DNA of 64,000 nucleotides from Corallococcus sp. EGB (GTDB taxonomy: Bacteria > Myxococcota > Myxococcia > Myxococcales > Myxococcaceae), in NCBI RefSeq assembly GCF_019968905.1, contig NZ_CP079946.1:3720001-3784000 (forward strand), written 5' to 3'. The position numbers and the translations under genes were made by a program. The notes below the pieces were generated by a model. That model worked only from the letters and a program-made list of their open reading frames with translations. It made no database searches and was not told where the DNA came from. This document shows positions 35,956 to 48,029 of this stretch, piece after piece. The stretch's first letter is position 1; each line of letters starts with the position of its first letter.

Positions 35956-36166
35956 GCGTCGCCTTTCCTTCTACCGCAGGGCCTGAGCGCCGGTAGGACC
36001 CCGGGGGTGCCGCTCACCCGACGTGCAGGCAGGCGGAGCGGCTTGGGCGCCGGCTCGGGCTCCTGGGCGTGCGGAACGGGGCGGGGGCATGCACTTTATC
36101 TACCATGGCTCCTCTCGCCATTGTTTCTGGTGAATGCCGCTCGCCGGGGTTACAAGCAAGGGTGGC

Positions 36167-36781
36167 GTGGCCAGGAAAAAGTTCATCGCCATCGCGGGCA
36201 ACATCGGGGCCGGAAAGACGGAGCTCACGTCCTTCCTGTGCCGGAAGTACGGCCTCACGCCGTCCTTCGAGCCCAATGACCAGAACCCCTACCTCGCGGA
36301 CTTCTACAAGGACATGAAGACGTGGGCGTTCCGCTCGCAGCTCTTCTTCCTGACGCACAAGTTCCGCCTGCACCGGGAGCTGGAGCGTACGCCCGGCACC
36401 GTGCTCCAGGACCGGACGCTCTACGAGGACGCGGAAATCTTCGCCAAGAACCTCCACCGGCAGCGGCTCATCGACAAGCGCGACTGGGGAACGTACTGGG
36501 AGCTGTACCAGACCATCTCCCAGGCGCTCCGGCCGCCGGACCTGATGATCTACCTGCGCTGCCCGGTGGCCACGCTGAAGGAGCGCATCCGGCTGCGCGG
36601 GCGGGCCATGGAGAAGGACATCCCGACCCCCTACCTGAAGCGCCTCAACGCCCTCTACGAGGAATGGTTCGAGGGCTACTCGCTGTCGCCGGTGCTGGTG
36701 CTGGGGACGGACAAGCTGGACTACCTCACCAACCTGGTGGACCGCGTGGACCTCTTCCGACAGATCGAGAAGCACCTGTGA
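36167..36781 (+). CDS. Deoxynucleoside kinase family protein
   Basis: About 204 residues, phosphorylating deoxynucleosides for salvage. P-loop AIAGNIGAGKTEL, the substrate-site motif FEPNDQNPYL and the ERS-like DRTLYEDAEIF, and the LID Arg cluster KERIRLRGRAMEK are visible. I prefer GTG 36167 (MARKKFIAIAGN, family-typical) to ATG 36134, which would add 11 residues; neither has a clear site. It overlaps the downstream gene by 4 bp (GTGA). Confidence 0.82.
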   Translation: MARKKFIAIAGNIGAGKTELTSFLCRKYGLTPSFEPNDQNPYLADFYKDMKTWAFRSQLFFLTHKFRLHRELERTPGTVLQDRTLYEDAEIFAKNLHRQRLIDKRDWGTYWELYQTISQALRPPDLMIYLRCPVATLKERIRLRGRAMEKDIPTPYLKRLNALYEEWFEGYSLSPVLVLGTDKLDYLTNLVDRVDLFRQIEKHL

Positions 36782-37953
36782 AGGAGGTCTACGTCCTGGC
36801 CACCGAGCACCCCGCGCCGCCGGCCCTGGACGCGCTGCGCGCGGCGTTCGCGACGGACGAGGTGGAGTTCGTCCCGCACGAGGGCGACTGGGGCTTCACC
36901 GTGCGGGCGGACGGTTCGGAGGTGAAGGTGGTGCTCAAGCCCCTGAGCGACGGCCGTCCGCGCGTCACCCAGGAGCTGTTCAGCGGCAGCCCGGATGCCT
37001 TCGCGCGCGTGGAGCGTTCCCAGGCCTGCTACGCGTTCCTCCTGGAGCCGGGCGGTCCGCAGCCCACGCTGCCCGTCTTCGAGGCGCTGTGGACCGTGCG
37101 CACGCTCATGGAGCAGGTGCAGGGCGTGCTCGTGGACCTGACGGCGTTCAAGCTGCACGAGCCCGAGGACGTGGTCGAGATCACGGAGCTGGACTTCGAC
37201 ATCCGCGACCACGTGCACCTGCACGCCTTGGAGCTGGCGGAGGGGGACACGCCGCTGTGGGTGCACTCGCACGGGATGGAGAAGTTCGGCGCGCGGGACG
37301 TGGAGATCTTCCACCTGGGGGAGAACGACCTGCTGGCCGCGGAGAGCTTCCTCCACGAGCTGTGCACGGACCTGGCGTTCGCGCAGGGGCCGGCGCTGCG
37401 CTCGGAGGTGGCCACCAGCGAGGGCCAGAGCTTCACCCTGGTGCCGTCGGAGGAGGCCCGCGCGAACCTGCTGGGCGTGCCGCTGGACGCCTTCGAGGGC
37501 CACGAGGGGCTGTTCCTCACGGTGGTGTCGCCGCTGGGCCGGCACAACACGGCGGAGCTCCTGGCGACGTACCGGGAGCGCTTCGCCAAGGAGCCGGCCG
37601 AGCAGACCCAGGCCATGCATGAAGAGGCGCAGGCGCTGTTGCCCGCGTTCTTGGCGCGCTTCCAGCGCAAGGGGTTGATGGAGCCCCTCACGTTCCTGGT
37701 GCGGGCTCCCTTCGAGACGCACCCGGAGGGTGAGGTGGTGGTGGAGAACCTCTGGCTGGAGGCGGTGACCCGGGACGAGGGCTCCGTCGTGGGCCGGCTG
37801 GTGGATGGCGCGGTGCACACCACGGAGTGGCGCAAGGGGGCCCACGTGGAGGTGGAGGAGAAGCAGATCAACGCCCTGGCCATCGCCCGGGAGGGCCGCG
37901 CGCTCAACGAGTCCGAGCTGAGGGCTCTTTTGAACGCCGAACGCCCGATGTAG
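36778..37953 (+). CDS. DUF4026/DUF2314 domain protein
   Basis: 391 residues from GTG 36778, overlapping the kinase stop. The C-terminal about 90 residues (VVVENLWLEAVTRDEGSVVG, then a WRKGAHVEVEEKQINALAI segment) fit DUF2314, and the preceding part resembles DUF4026, both of unknown function. No signal peptide or membrane segment. Overlap with the kinase gene suggests coupled expression, but no biochemical link is known. Confidence 0.65.
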   Translation: MKEVYVLATEHPAPPALDALRAAFATDEVEFVPHEGDWGFTVRADGSEVKVVLKPLSDGRPRVTQELFSGSPDAFARVERSQACYAFLLEPGGPQPTLPVFEALWTVRTLMEQVQGVLVDLTAFKLHEPEDVVEITELDFDIRDHVHLHALELAEGDTPLWVHSHGMEKFGARDVEIFHLGENDLLAAESFLHELCTDLAFAQGPALRSEVATSEGQSFTLVPSEEARANLLGVPLDAFEGHEGLFLTVVSPLGRHNTAELLATYRERFAKEPAEQTQAMHEEAQALLPAFLARFQRKGLMEPLTFLVRAPFETHPEGEVVVENLWLEAVTRDEGSVVGRLVDGAVHTTEWRKGAHVEVEEKQINALAIAREGRALNESELRALLNAERPM

Positions 37954-38019
37954 CGCCGCGCGTCCAACCCGACGCGTCTTGCGGGCGCCCCTCGGGGCAC
38001 TGGTAGGCTCCCCGTCCGC

Positions 38020-39756
38020 ATGCCGGCATTGCTGCTGCTCACGGGCCCCTCGGCGGGGCGCCGGTACGAGGTCGTCTCCCAGCTGACCCTCGGCCGCAGC
38101 CCCTCCTGCGACATCCCGCTGGAAGACGACCAGGTCTCGCGCCGCCACGCGCAGCTGTTCCTGGACACGGTCGCGGGACAGGTGCGGCTGCGCGACCTGG
38201 GCTCCACCAACGGCACGCTGCTCAACGGGCAGCGGTTGGCGCTCCAGGAGGAGGCGGTGCTGCGCCCGGGCGACCGGATGCGCGTGGGCGCCACCATCGC
38301 GGTGTACGAGCCGCCGCCGGTGTCCATCGTGGACGAGCCTTCCGGGGTCGTCGCCCCGGGGCCGGAGCACGTGCCCATCGAGGAGGTGCTGCCGCACGTG
38401 GGCGCGGCCGCGGCGATGTACTCGGCGGGGACGGCGCTGTTGGGGGCCACCAGCGAGGCCATGGTGCTGCGGCGGCTGTCCGAGGAGACGGCGCACGCGC
38501 TCAACGCGGACCGGGCCGCGGCGCTCCTGAGCGGGCCGGAGGGGCTGCGCACGGCCGCGGTGTCCGGCGCGGCGTCCGTGGAGGTGCCTCGCGCGCTGGT
38601 GCAGGCGGCGCTGGAGCGCAAGGAGTTGGGGCGGACGGATACGGCGCTGTGCTCGCCGCTGGTGGCTTCGGGCGGGATGCCCTTTGGCGTGCTCTACGTG
38701 GAGCGCGAGGAGTCGCCGTTCACCGAGGGCGAGGGGCAGTTGCTCGCGTCGCTGGGGCGGCTGGGCGGCGAGGCCTATACGGCGGTGCGCTCGCGCGGTG
38801 AGGCGGAGGCCGCGGAGACGCCGTGGGTGACGCCGCTGGGGACGTCGCGGGTGTTCCGGGGCGTGTTGGAGGAAGCGCGGCGGGCGGCGGGCAGCGCCGC
38901 CCCGGTGGTGCTGTATGGCGAACCCGGTACGGGCAAGGCGTTGCTGGCGCACTTCCTCCACGGCAAGTCACCGCGCGCGCTGGGGCCGTGGGTGACGGTG
39001 GAGTGCCGGCAGCCGCTGGAGGCCGTGGAGGTGGCGCTCTTCGGCCGCGCGGGCTCGCCCGGCCAGCCACCGGTGACGTCCGCGGTGCTGCGAGCGGACG
39101 CGGGCACGCTGCTGTTGCGCCACGTGGAGGCGCTTCCCCGGCAGGCGGCGGAGCGGCTGGCGCGGATGCTGGCCCGGCGCGCGGCTCCGGCCCGGCAGGG
39201 GGGAGAGGAGCCCGTGGACGTGCGCATCGTCGCCACCAGCGCGTCGCCGGTGTCGCGGCTCGCGTCGCGGGGCGAGTTCGACGCGGCGCTGGCCCGGGGG
39301 CTCACGGGGTTCGAGATGGAAGTGCCTCCCCTGCGGGAGCGGCGGGCCGACGTACCGGTGCTGCTGGAGCACTTCGTCCTGCGCGGTGCCCGGCAGGGCG
39401 GGCGGGAGGCGCCGGTGCTGGGACCGGAGGCCCGGCGCCTGTTGGCGGAGTACCCGTGGCCGCAGAACGTGCGCGAACTGGAGTTGGTCGCGGAGCGGCT
39501 GGGGCGCGTGTACGCGGCGGGCCACGTGGGCATTCCGCAGCTGCCGCCCGAGGTGCGCGAGGGCGTGGTGGGGCACGCGCCGCGCACGTTGCAGGAGCAG
39601 GTGGCCCGCCTGGAGCGCGACGCCATCGCGGAGGCCCTTCGCGAGTCCGGCTGGAAGAAGGTCCGCGCGGCGGAGCTGCTGGGCATCAGCCGGCCCACGC
39701 TCGACCGGAAGATGGAGGAGTACGGGCTGACGCTGGAGCGGGGGACCCGCGGTTGA
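38020..39756 (+). CDS. FHA-GAF-AAA regulator with degenerate sigma-54 activator core
   Basis: 578 residues. N-terminal FHA domain (about 20-90, with GRSPSCDI, SRRHA and GSTNGT phosphothreonine-binding motifs), a GAF-like domain (about 130-255), an AAA+ domain (about 270-500) and a C-terminal Fis-type HTH (about 522-570, ending EYGLTLERG). Walker A GEPGTGK (300-306) is present. However the GAFTGA sigma-54 loop is absent (LFGRAGSPGQPPVTS, about 340-354), and the Walker B D-E pair is replaced by R367-H368 in GTLLLRHVE. It therefore probably binds DNA and a phosphopeptide but does not activate sigma-54 polymerase in the usual way. Confidence 0.85.
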   Translation: MPALLLLTGPSAGRRYEVVSQLTLGRSPSCDIPLEDDQVSRRHAQLFLDTVAGQVRLRDLGSTNGTLLNGQRLALQEEAVLRPGDRMRVGATIAVYEPPPVSIVDEPSGVVAPGPEHVPIEEVLPHVGAAAAMYSAGTALLGATSEAMVLRRLSEETAHALNADRAAALLSGPEGLRTAAVSGAASVEVPRALVQAALERKELGRTDTALCSPLVASGGMPFGVLYVEREESPFTEGEGQLLASLGRLGGEAYTAVRSRGEAEAAETPWVTPLGTSRVFRGVLEEARRAAGSAAPVVLYGEPGTGKALLAHFLHGKSPRALGPWVTVECRQPLEAVEVALFGRAGSPGQPPVTSAVLRADAGTLLLRHVEALPRQAAERLARMLARRAAPARQGGEEPVDVRIVATSASPVSRLASRGEFDAALARGLTGFEMEVPPLRERRADVPVLLEHFVLRGARQGGREAPVLGPEARRLLAEYPWPQNVRELELVAERLGRVYAAGHVGIPQLPPEVREGVVGHAPRTLQEQVARLERDAIAEALRESGWKKVRAAELLGISRPTLDRKMEEYGLTLERGTRG

Positions 39757-44963: not shown

Positions 44964-47900
44964 GTGTCTCACGAACGCTTCACGACCAGCCGCGAGGTGT
45001 ACCACCGCATCCGGTGGGACTCGCGGCTCGATGCCCGCGAGTTCGTCATCGGTTACGACGCGCACCGCGGCGCGATGCAGGAGATGCCCCTCGAGGCGTT
45101 TGTCCCCGACGGCGAGATCCCGTGGCACCGCGTCTGGTACTTCAAGCGCGGGACCCTGGTGGTGTGGGACCGCAAGGAACGCATCGACCTCCTCGGCAAT
45201 GCCGGGCCCGCGGAGGAGCCCGCGCAACCTCCGCCTGTCGCGGTGCCGGGCTTCACACCCTTGCCCGCATGGAAATACGACGGGCGCTCGGGTGCGTGGG
45301 CCCAGGCCTCATCTGCGCCGGGCCCCTCGCTCCCCGCGGCGGCCACGCTGACAGTCGTCACCTTCAACGTCCTCTTCGACCTGTACGACGCGGAGTTGCT
45401 GGCGACCGAGCGCAGGACCCCGGCGGCGCTCGCGCTGCTCCGTGAGACGGACGCGGACGTCATCGCGCTCCAGGAGGTCACTCCAGCGTTCCTCCGGGCC
45501 CTGCTCGCCGAACCCTGGGTTCGCGAGCGCTACTGGCTGACGGACGGTCCCAGCGCGCAGACCGTGACTCCCTATGGTCAGGTGCTCCTGTCGCGCGTGC
45601 CGCTCGCATCCGTGTGGCAGCGCGCCTTCTCGCGGGACAAGCGGTTCATCACCGCGGAGCTTCGCCTCTCGGGCGGCACGGCATGGGTGGCCACGCCTCA
45701 CCTGACGAGCAACCGGGACGCGTCTGGAGCCTCGGCGCGTGCGGTGCAGGTCGATGCGCTTCTTGAATGGGCCCGGACACTCGGTTCCACGAATGAGCTT
45801 GATGCTCCGGACCTGGTGGTGGCCGGTGACTTCAACTTCGGTGATGGTGCGCCGGAAGCGGAGTCCTTCGCGCGCGCGGGCTTCGTGGATGTCTGGTCCT
45901 CCCTGCGGCCTTCGGAAGCAGGGGAGACATTCAACCCCCAGTTGAACGCCCTGGCGGCGCTCACCACCGTTTCGGGACGGCTCGCGCGGTTGGACCGGGT
46001 GCTGGTGGCATCTCCCACAGGGCGCTTCGCTCCAGAGTCCGTGGGCCTCTTCGCGGAAGCCCCGCTCGCGGGATCGCCCGCGCCCTCGGGGAAGCCCCTC
46101 TTCGTCTCGGACCATTTCGGGCTGCGCTGTGTCCTGCGCCGGGAATCGGTTTCATCCGCTGCGGACGGCGCCGCGCGGACCTCCACGACGCTCGTCCATC
46201 ACACGGCCCTGGTGCTGATTCCGCCGGAGGAAGTCTGGGGGCCCATCCAGGCGCTGCGCAAGAAGCACGACGCGAAGTTCCAGCGGTGGATGCCCCACAT
46301 CACGCTGCTGTATCCCTTCGTTCCGGAAGAGGACTTCGAGACGGCAGAGGCCATCCTCGTGGATGCCCTCCAGGGCGTCGCACCCTTCGAGGTGACGCTC
46401 TCCGCGTTCGGCCACTTCGAGCACCGCGCCAACGCGACCGCGTGGCTCCGTCCCGATGCTCAGCCCTCCGGTGCGCTGGCGGCCTTGCACGCGAAGCTCG
46501 TGGCGGCCTTGCCCGAATGCGCCACCTCCGCTCATGGTGGCTTCACGCCCCACCTCTCCGTCGGGCAGCTCCCGCTCTCCACGGACATCCCCCGCACGCT
46601 CGCCGAGTGGCAGCGCTCCTGGCGGTCGCTGAAGTTCCACGTGGGCGAGCTGTGCCTCATCCGGAGGAAGGGCGATACACCCTTCGAGATCATCCGGCGC
46701 ATCCCCCTGGCACAGCCATCACGGACAGCGCCGGAGCACGAGGACACGGCACTGCACGAAGTGCTGACGTCCATTGGCGCCACCGGGTCACCCGAGGGGC
46801 ACGCCGCCCGGACCGCGGCGGTGGAGCAACTGCGCGCACACTGCGAACGGATCGGCGCCACGCTGCATCCGTATGGCTCGTATCTCCTGGGCACGGACGG
46901 CGCGGGCAGCGACGTGGACGCTGTCGCCATCGGACCGGCGAACCTGCCCCGTGACGACTTCGCGCGGGCGCTCCTCCAGGAACTGGAACCGGGCACGGCC
47001 CGCTACGTGGCGGACGCCTCCATCCCGCTGGTGAAGTTGTCCCTCGGGGGCGTGAGCTTCGACCTGGCCTACGCGAGCCGTCCCGAGGGCGTGCCTCCGG
47101 AAGAACCCCTGATGCGGATCGAGCAGCATGGTTCGGAGCTCGACCCCGCGGGCCTCCGCGCCGTGCTGGGGTGGGCCGACACGTCGAGCTTGATGGATGC
47201 CATTGCTCGCGACAGCGGACGGACCGAACGGTTCCGGACCCTGCTGCGCGCTGTGAAGGCCTGGGCCCGAGCCCGAGGCATCTACTCCCATGCGTTGGGT
47301 TATCTCGGTGGGTTGTCGTGGACGCTGCTCGCGGCTTGGACCTGCACCCGCGCGACCCCGGAGGCCATGCGGTCCGACGTGGCACTGCTCGCGCACTTCT
47401 TCGGAACCTTTGCTTCCTGGCCGTGGCCCCAGCCGGTGACGCTCACGGCCGAGACGGCGCGCTACCGGCCCGAAGGCAAGCGCGACCTCCTGCCCGTCAT
47501 TGCTCCCGCGCTCCCGGCTCGAAACACCGCGCGCAATGTGTCGCGGTCCACGTTCCGCGTCCTCCGGGACGAACTGCTTCGCGCCCGCGAGCTCGTGGCT
47601 CACGCGTGTGCTGCGGGCACCGCCTCCACATGGTCCGCGCTCTTCCTGCCCCTCGCCGCCAACGAGCTCCCCCCGGTGGCGTTGCGCCTGTCCGCCGAGG
47701 CTTCCTCCGCCGAGGACCGGGAAGTCGTCGCGGGGTGGATCCTCGGGCACGTCACGGCCCTGGTGTATCGGCTGGAAGGAGACCGGCGTCTCTTCGTGCG
47801 TCCGCTCCATCCGCCACAGGCCGGAGGACCGCTGCTCATCGGGTTGGAGGTGCGCGAAGCACGGGACGCCGCGGCGTTGTCATGGCATCCCTCGAGTCCG

Positions 47901-48029
47901 CTGTTCGCGGCCGTGGAGGCGTTCCGCGCGTCCTTCCAGGAGTGGACGCACCGCCCCGCCGGCGCGGTGCTCCAGGTCGAGTGGGTGCGAGGCAATGACA
48001 GCGCACGGAGCGCTACGCCCGCTCCGTAG
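44964..48029 (+). CDS. Multi-domain RNA end-repair enzyme: MJ1316/DUF504 + EEP + 2H + eukaryote-type poly(A) polymerase
   Basis: 1021 residues from GTG 44964. Domain 1 (about 7-80) matches DUF504/MJ1316 (IRWDSRLDAREFVIGYD, IPWHRVWYF, VVWDRKERIDLL), proposed to recognise RNA ends. Domain 2 (about 127-392) is an endonuclease/exonuclease/phosphatase fold: N135, LQE171, H246, AGD289FN291, SD383H384. Domain 3 (about 408-585) is a 2H phosphoesterase with HIT at 445 and HLS at 530, as in 2'-5' RNA ligases. Domain 4 (about 596-900) resembles eukaryotic poly(A) polymerase: GSY at 638, carboxylates D650, D652 and D700, and the central helix VKAWARARGIYSHALGYLGG (764-783). All catalytic motifs look intact. 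The gene is solitary, flanked by lipoprotein genes. Confidence 0.85.
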   Translation: MSHERFTTSREVYHRIRWDSRLDAREFVIGYDAHRGAMQEMPLEAFVPDGEIPWHRVWYFKRGTLVVWDRKERIDLLGNAGPAEEPAQPPPVAVPGFTPLPAWKYDGRSGAWAQASSAPGPSLPAAATLTVVTFNVLFDLYDAELLATERRTPAALALLRETDADVIALQEVTPAFLRALLAEPWVRERYWLTDGPSAQTVTPYGQVLLSRVPLASVWQRAFSRDKRFITAELRLSGGTAWVATPHLTSNRDASGASARAVQVDALLEWARTLGSTNELDAPDLVVAGDFNFGDGAPEAESFARAGFVDVWSSLRPSEAGETFNPQLNALAALTTVSGRLARLDRVLVASPTGRFAPESVGLFAEAPLAGSPAPSGKPLFVSDHFGLRCVLRRESVSSAADGAARTSTTLVHHTALVLIPPEEVWGPIQALRKKHDAKFQRWMPHITLLYPFVPEEDFETAEAILVDALQGVAPFEVTLSAFGHFEHRANATAWLRPDAQPSGALAALHAKLVAALPECATSAHGGFTPHLSVGQLPLSTDIPRTLAEWQRSWRSLKFHVGELCLIRRKGDTPFEIIRRIPLAQPSRTAPEHEDTALHEVLTSIGATGSPEGHAARTAAVEQLRAHCERIGATLHPYGSYLLGTDGAGSDVDAVAIGPANLPRDDFARALLQELEPGTARYVADASIPLVKLSLGGVSFDLAYASRPEGVPPEEPLMRIEQHGSELDPAGLRAVLGWADTSSLMDAIARDSGRTERFRTLLRAVKAWARARGIYSHALGYLGGLSWTLLAAWTCTRATPEAMRSDVALLAHFFGTFASWPWPQPVTLTAETARYRPEGKRDLLPVIAPALPARNTARNVSRSTFRVLRDELLRARELVAHACAAGTASTWSALFLPLAANELPPVALRLSAEASSAEDREVVAGWILGHVTALVYRLEGDRRLFVRPLHPPQAGGPLLIGLEVREARDAAALSWHPSSPLFAAVEAFRASFQEWTHRPAGAVLQVEWVRGNDSARSATPAP

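Follow-up and report, generated by a model that had tools for sequence, protein, structure and literature searches.

A conserved myxobacterial FHA-GAF protein family with a degenerate enhancer-binding AAA+ domain and a retained Fis-type DNA-binding domain

Introduction

What does a protein built like a sigma54 activator do once the parts of its motor have been lost? This question is raised by a gene of Corallococcus sp. EGB, whose genome of 9.43 Mb is available as a single contig. The gene lies in a stretch of 64,000 nucleotides (contig NZ_CP079946.1, positions 3,720,001 to 3,784,000), the whole of which is referred to here as the window. Its product resembles the enhancer-binding proteins (bEBPs). 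The GAFTGA motif, the Walker B glutamate with its switch asparagine and the arginine fingers of these proteins are described in the sections consulted of PMC7175178. Here we analysed the gene, its orthologues and its intact relatives by sequence comparison.

Results

Domain organisation and losses in the AAA+ domain

The reading frame encodes, in this order, FHA, GAF, bEBP-type AAA+, lid and Fis-type HTH domains. Pfam profiles confirm the FHA, AAA+ and Fis domains that the original prediction had read from the DNA alone (Table 1). With a bEBP-type AAA+ core and a Fis HTH, and no GAFTGA, the protein fits by its features the GAFTGA-less type of bEBP-like proteins. An AlphaFold model, built with 11 close sequences as alignment, reaches a mean pLDDT of only 34.4, too low to be used.

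Table 1. Features of the locus in window coordinates
Feature	Position	Strand	Basis or remark
Deoxynucleoside kinase (dNK), neighbour	36134..36781	+	Pfam 169 bits; synteny
DUF2314 protein, 391 aa, neighbour	36778..37953	+	Pfam 30.7 bits; synteny
Candidate promoter CTTGC ... TAGGCT	37978..38009	+	TAGGCT ends 10 nt before the ATG
Reading frame, 578 aa, ATG start	38020..39756	+	stop codon in addition
FHA domain, residues 23-90	38086..38289	+	Pfam 71.1 bits
GAF domain, residues 149-248	38464..38763	+	Pfam 26.4 bits, barely above the cut-off of 22.4
Degenerate bEBP AAA+ core, residues 274-430	38839..39309	+	Pfam Sigma54_activat (PF00158) 65.2 bits, cut-off 20.2
Walker A GEPGTGK, residues 300-306, kept in the Corallococcus protein	38917..38937	+	sequence comparison
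Place of L1 and downstream part, residues 343-366, without GAFTGA	39046..39117	+	alignment
R367-H368 at the place of Walker B D-E	39118..39123	+	alignment with intact relatives
L2-loop region ARRAAPARQGGEEPVDVR, residues 385-402	39172..39225	+	alignment
Arginine-finger stretch, with D421 and G427 at the places of the two arginines of intact relatives	39280..39300	+	alignment
AAA lid, residues 439-516	39334..39567	+	Pfam AAA_lid_14 61.9 bits
Fis-type HTH, residues 528-568, recognition helix SRPTLDRK	39601..39723	+	Pfam HTH_8 51.6 bits

The orthologue set was derived from 97 loci. One of these (L041, Kocuria) was removed as it gave no hit at 1e-20, while nine intact paralogues, the divergent L083 and the contig-end fragments L056 and L057 were kept apart from the count. 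Merging nine identical copies among the 84 loci left yields 75 distinct full-length orthologues.

At the place of loop L1 the Corallococcus protein reads LFGRAGSPGQPPVTSAVLRADAG, in contrast to LFGHxxGAFTGA...GxFExADGG in intact relatives, and a GAFTGA-type motif is found in none of the 75 orthologues. The sigma54 contact loop is thus missing, as had been predicted. The loss of the Walker B D-E, replaced by R-H in the Corallococcus protein, likewise holds throughout the family: Asp at position 367 and Glu at position 368 each occur in 0/75 orthologues (L055 has Glu at 367), and neither fragment shows the D-E pair. The switch asparagine is replaced by E328 and by Asp or Glu in all 75. An arginine is absent from the first finger position (421) in every orthologue and present at the second (427) only in L029. 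The original prediction was therefore correct but understated, as switch asparagine and both finger positions are missing in addition to the Walker B residues. With these parts lost, ATP hydrolysis is very unlikely, in line with what had been proposed. An arginine at position 426, one place off the second finger, is found in 61/75 orthologues and could in principle substitute for the lost residue. Sensor 1 (position 408) was dropped as evidence of loss because the position, variable in the orthologues, varies in the intact paralogues too (His, Asn or Arg). A recent local mutation is ruled out, since the loss is common to all 75 orthologues, including one each from two other families of the order.

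Comparison with intact bEBPs

A census of the source genome with PF00158 returned 56 places. Besides the protein studied here (68.6 bits), 48 score at least 110 bits, and these were inspected; the other seven matches are weak, at 37.6 bits and below. All 48 carry the Walker B D-E and 46 carry a GAFTGA-type L1 (G-A/S-F/Y-T/S). Set against these controls, the presence of either feature in 0/75 orthologues is not a matter of chance. Of the two exceptions for L1, L145 is RtcR-like by our reading. The other, L125 (G000:C1:3184300-3187800), is a second FHA bEBP without GAFTGA (LFGGLRAGENEDKGARG), which keeps the Walker B D-E and the arginine fingers.

The intact FHA-GAF bEBPs of Myxococcaceae (L082, L084-L091) share the FHA and GAF domains, the similarity in the AAA domain and the LGISRPTLDRK helix with the family. 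They differ in that 9/9 keep a GAFTGA-type L1 (GAFTGA in eight, GSFTGA in L087), the D-E pair and the arginine fingers. Mean pairwise identities among these nine paralogues (36 pairs) are 0.72 for the AAA core, 0.61 for FHA, 0.47 for GAF, 0.63 for the lid and 0.76 for the HTH, compared to 0.64, 0.66, 0.67, 0.63 and 0.77, respectively, in the orthologue family (2775 pairs). Pairs matched for similar overall identity show the same direction. Hence the AAA core of the orthologue family is no longer ahead of FHA and GAF in conservation, as it is in the intact paralogues. The HTH is equally kept in both sets.

The nucleotide pocket

The Walker A lysine (K306) is kept in 60/75 orthologues and replaced by arginine in 15. 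This K306R exchange is accompanied by a change of the sensor-2 arginine, R485E in 14 cases and Arg to Ala in one. Lysine and sensor-2 arginine are both present in 57/75 orthologues, lysine without the sensor-2 arginine in 3/75. The nine K306R sequences included in our quick tree all belong to one clade, so that the coupled swap looks like a single event. At a guess, an R306-E485 salt bridge could fill the empty nucleotide pocket.

The retained residues suggest that the protein may still bind ATP and that this binding may be relevant. The AAA pocket could bind ATP or a cyclic dinucleotide without hydrolysis, the bound state setting oligomerisation and DNA binding. In addition to the 57 orthologues with both residues, two precedents speak for such a role: NtrC of Rhodobacter capsulatus requires ATP binding and not hydrolysis, as reported in the part of PMC10274813 consulted, and VpsR, FleQ and EpsI/Nla24 of Myxococcus xanthus bind c-di-GMP according to the part seen of PMC4877007. 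On the other side, the combination of Walker A arginine with sensor-2 Glu or Ala in 15/75 orthologues should spoil binding. Inspection of the orthologue alignment by eye also revealed no LFRS upstream of the AAA core, a sequence which we take to be the c-di-GMP motif of the FleQ type. Overall, we consider nucleotide sensing by this domain unlikely.

Kept, constrained and rewritten parts

The FHA residues R26, S40, R41, H43 and N64, which we take to form the phosphothreonine-binding pocket (GR, SRxH, N), are present in 75/75 orthologues. The same holds for K547, A550, A551, L554, G555, I556, R558, T560, L561, D562 and K564 of the HTH, whose recognition helix is near-invariant. The kept pocket and helix suggest that the protein retains DNA binding and phosphothreonine sensing, in agreement with the proposed DNA-binding phospho-sensor.

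In 120 pairs of 16 sequences of the Corallococcus clade, dN/dS amounts to 0.067 for FHA, 0.047 for GAF, 0.086 for AAA, 0.078 for the lid and 0.163 for the HTH. These values are well under 1 and thus indicate purifying selection in every domain. Together with the one open orthologue per matching genome they rule out a pseudogene. At short range the HTH thus has a higher value than the other four domains; given this and the equal conservation in intact paralogues, it is not specially constrained in this family.

Among the 147 windows of 18 residues in the AAA core, conservation is highest in the L2 region (residues 385-402), and residues 354-366 rank fifth of 152 windows. Walker B and sensor 1 rank near the bottom, and the new L1 tip lies in the middle (93 of 154) with the exception of G348, P350 and P351. 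The family pattern over residues 343-366 is R-x-x-x-P-G-x-P-P-x-x-S-A-x-L-x-A-D-x-G. Compared with intact paralogues, G348, P350, P351, S354, A355 and L357 in this stretch and A389, P390, E396 and E397 in L2 are new and nearly fixed. Other elements are old and common to the intact paralogues, namely A-D-x-G after L1 as well as R392, GG and VDVR in L2. Since new, nearly fixed residues occur in both stretches, the pore loops look partly rewritten and not merely decayed.

Distribution, gene neighbourhood and a short form

Of the 59 Myxococcaceae genomes sampled, 46 each yielded a single orthologue (E <= 1e-60). Using the short form described below as query, 84 of 96 Myxococcaceae genomes gave a match (E <= 1e-22) and 12 gave none. 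Two further families of the order contribute one orthologue each, with 49% and 43% identity. This is an old orthologous family in myxobacteria.

All 82 Myxococcaceae loci that include upstream sequence (two fragments have none) carry the DUF2314 gene ahead of the regulator gene and on its strand, at a distance of about 0.95 kb in L025, L026 and L028. DUF2314 is in turn preceded by the dNK gene in 78/82 loci, the flank being too short in the remaining four. In the two other families dNK is found upstream with no DUF2314 in between. Both genes are tied to the regulator gene by synteny only. In six genomes that were read after a negative search (G006, G015, G022, G030, G038 and G046; about 1.2 kb of downstream view in G022) the regulator gene was not found beside DUF2314, which is kept. 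Five of these have dNK before DUF2314, and in G006 it was not found within the 219 bases read.

Upstream of dNK, a stretch at 36030-36170 (GGGGTTACAAGCA and around) is conserved in Corallococcus as well as in a second genus. Within this stretch the ATG at 36134 is not conserved, so that dNK may start with the GTG at 36167 and the upstream stretch may be a leader. Elsewhere in the window, at 44964-48029 on the forward strand, lies an open reading frame of 1021 amino acids with MJ1316, Exo_endo_phos, 2'-5' RNA ligase and poly(A) polymerase domains.

One genome (G012) harbours a short form of 257 amino acids (L155:1509-2279), in which an in-frame fusion links the FHA domain to lid and HTH, and both GAF and the AAA core are missing. 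The gene follows DUF2314; the 268 bases read ahead of DUF2314 show no dNK. As G012 is a draft of 910 contigs with 93% completeness, the short form could be an assembly error. It is the only full short-form match among the matches listed for the 84 matching genomes; one piece only was matched in G050 (a contig-end fragment), G168 (frame of 311 aa) and G174 (frame of 496 aa).

These observations bear on two further explanations. First, the protein might be a phospho-dependent adaptor, in which FHA docking counts and DNA binding would be a remnant or would do no more than localise the protein. The FHA pocket kept in every orthologue is consistent with this, and the 12 genomes without a match indicate that the gene is dispensable. 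However, the HTH is the best-kept domain across the orthologues (mean identity 0.77) and survives even in the short form, which makes an adaptor role very improbable.

Second, the original prediction had proposed an antagonist of intact activators. Here the dead protein would join intact bEBP rings or occupy their enhancer sites and thereby poison sigma54 activation. In favour of this, the source genome holds the 48 AAA domains of bEBP type noted above, all with the Walker B D-E. In eight of the Myxococcaceae genomes read, the orthologue occurs together with an intact FHA-GAF paralogue that has the LGISRPTLDRK helix as well. Moreover, bEBPs of M. xanthus reportedly form hetero-oligomers, a claim attributed to the title of Volz et al. 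2012. Against this, the exact recognition helix occurs in 0/47 other aligned bEBPs of the source genome, the closest being SRPTLERK in L124. The arginines at the ring interface are lost at both finger positions, and the form without AAA core in one draft genome retains FHA and HTH. The antagonist is therefore not supported, and we regard it as improbable. Repression as such is conceivable.

Candidate promoter

Of 73 distinct upstream stretches of 70 bases, 41 have CTTGC followed by TA[GC][GT]CT before the start, with the second element ending 7-13 bases away. None of 14600 shuffled upstream stretches matches, where the pattern was first read from the same related sequences and the shuffles control base make-up only. 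The spacing of the two elements varies between genera. A scan upstream of the ATG for the E. coli consensus promoter gave no match, and a sequence resembling a ribosome site is present in 12 upstream stretches. A leaderless start is suggested for Corallococcus and its nearer relatives.

Between the promoter elements lies an inverted repeat resembling GCGCCCC-NN-GGGGCGC (37985-38000), kept with small changes across Corallococcus. As an operator it is only a lead, since outside Corallococcus it is not preserved in this form and the region has a high G+C content.

Origin and known relatives

A quick tree was built from 85 AAA-HTH sequences, among them 28 of the 75 orthologues. In it the orthologue family forms one side of a branch (SH-aLRT 98). 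The degenerate L083 is its next neighbour (99), with the intact FHA-GAF paralogues beyond (90). L083, from another family of the order (G119), has lost most of L1 and shows R-E at Walker B and GPGATGR at Walker A.

Among the PDB chains, VpsR of Vibrio cholerae (7v2b, 7v2v, 7v3w, 7v4e) narrowly gives the best sequence match, with 110 bits compared to 108 for the next. VpsR has a similarly shortened L1 (GQQP, GQPP here) and the same losses, with N-D for the Walker B D-E and Asn and Tyr at the finger positions, while Walker A is kept. Its N-terminus is of the receiver type in contrast to FHA-GAF. In a second quick tree, which has many open forks, the 214-residue VpsR fragment sits on a long branch outside that of the orthologue family (SH-aLRT 99); this tree thus leans against a direct relationship. 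As VpsR shares the losses but falls outside the family, the same change seems to have arisen at least twice.

Other relatives lack GAFTGA as well. The NtrC proteins of R. capsulatus and Caulobacter carry a receiver domain where the protein studied here has FHA-GAF. TyrR of E. coli, a bEBP relative without the GAFTGA insertion, partners with sigma70 and senses amino acids through an ACT-PAS module. In the part of PMC6375630 consulted, nine extra residues at the place of this insertion are given only for the A. brasilense and P. aeruginosa forms. According to the part of PMC10274813 consulted, some GAFTGA-less bEBPs work at sigma70 promoters: both NtrC proteins lack GAFTGA and act at sigma70-type promoters, and VpsR (printed VspR) regulates sigma70 promoters without need for ATP. 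Caulobacter NtrC differs in still requiring the Walker B Asp (PMC10274813, same part). FleQ of Pseudomonas aeruginosa and EpsI/Nla24 are NtrC-like and controlled by a nucleotide ligand, EpsI/Nla24 having a receiver domain and no FHA (PMC4877007, in the part seen), whereas FleQ keeps GAFTGA and D-E and also has no FHA. Our literature search, judged mostly at the level of listings, named no FHA bEBP without GAFTGA. A study by Jelsbak from 2005 is said to deal with the FHA bEBPs of M. xanthus.

Discussion

The motor parts of the AAA+ domain are lost while FHA and HTH are almost unchanged, and the protein thus probably controls genes without an ATP motor. We regard as the best explanation, and as reasonably probable, that it is a sigma54-independent, ATPase-dead, phosphothreonine-gated DNA-binding regulator, every biochemical step of which we infer from sequence. 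Counted for this explanation are the losses in 75/75 orthologues (74/75 for the second finger), the single branch in the tree, the FHA pocket, the HTH, the selection on all domains, the lower relative conservation of the AAA core, the conservation of L2, the short form and the parallel with VpsR. Counted against it are the 57 orthologues with both Walker A lysine and sensor-2 arginine, the possible assembly error behind the short form, an HTH no better kept than in intact paralogues and the arginine at position 426.

The ancestor would have been an FHA-GAF enhancer-binding protein and its descendant would work without sigma54. In the proposed mechanism the Fis HTH, judging from its conserved helix, would grip the DNA, while the FHA domain, with its fully kept pocket, would dock a threonine-phosphorylated partner or kinase. 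The GAF domain may either take a small ligand or only pair subunits. For the AAA+ part we strongly infer that it neither hydrolyses ATP nor pushes on sigma54; it may serve as a scaffold for oligomerisation or docking with partly rewritten pore loops. By analogy with VpsR and R. capsulatus NtrC the protein would most likely act at ordinary sigma70-type promoters, where polymerase would be blocked or recruited upon phospho-dependent docking.

A more far-reaching version, which we put forward as tentative and rather unlikely, holds that the pore loops have been rewritten as a conserved interface. The former sigma54 motor would then be a phosphothreonine-gated platform for the sigma70-polymerase or a kinase. 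One clade would have closed its nucleotide pocket by the coupled K306R/R485E swap, and loss of the AAA core in one genus would have produced a minimal FHA-HTH regulator. That part of the conserved loop sequence is common to intact relatives lowers the odds of this version. If true, it would make visible how the control of transcription evolved from an ATP-driven to a phospho-driven mode.

Returning to the phosphothreonine-gated DNA-binding regulator, its possible significance lies in the sensor. To our knowledge, the known regulators without a sigma54 motor carry sensors other than FHA. Myxobacteria are rich in Ser/Thr kinases and DNA-binding proteins, and the FHA sensor would directly connect a Ser/Thr kinase with a protein that binds DNA. 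The natural variants of the family, with Walker A kept, with Walker A changed and, in one draft genome, with the AAA core gone, would allow post-catalytic uses of an AAA+ domain to be tested.
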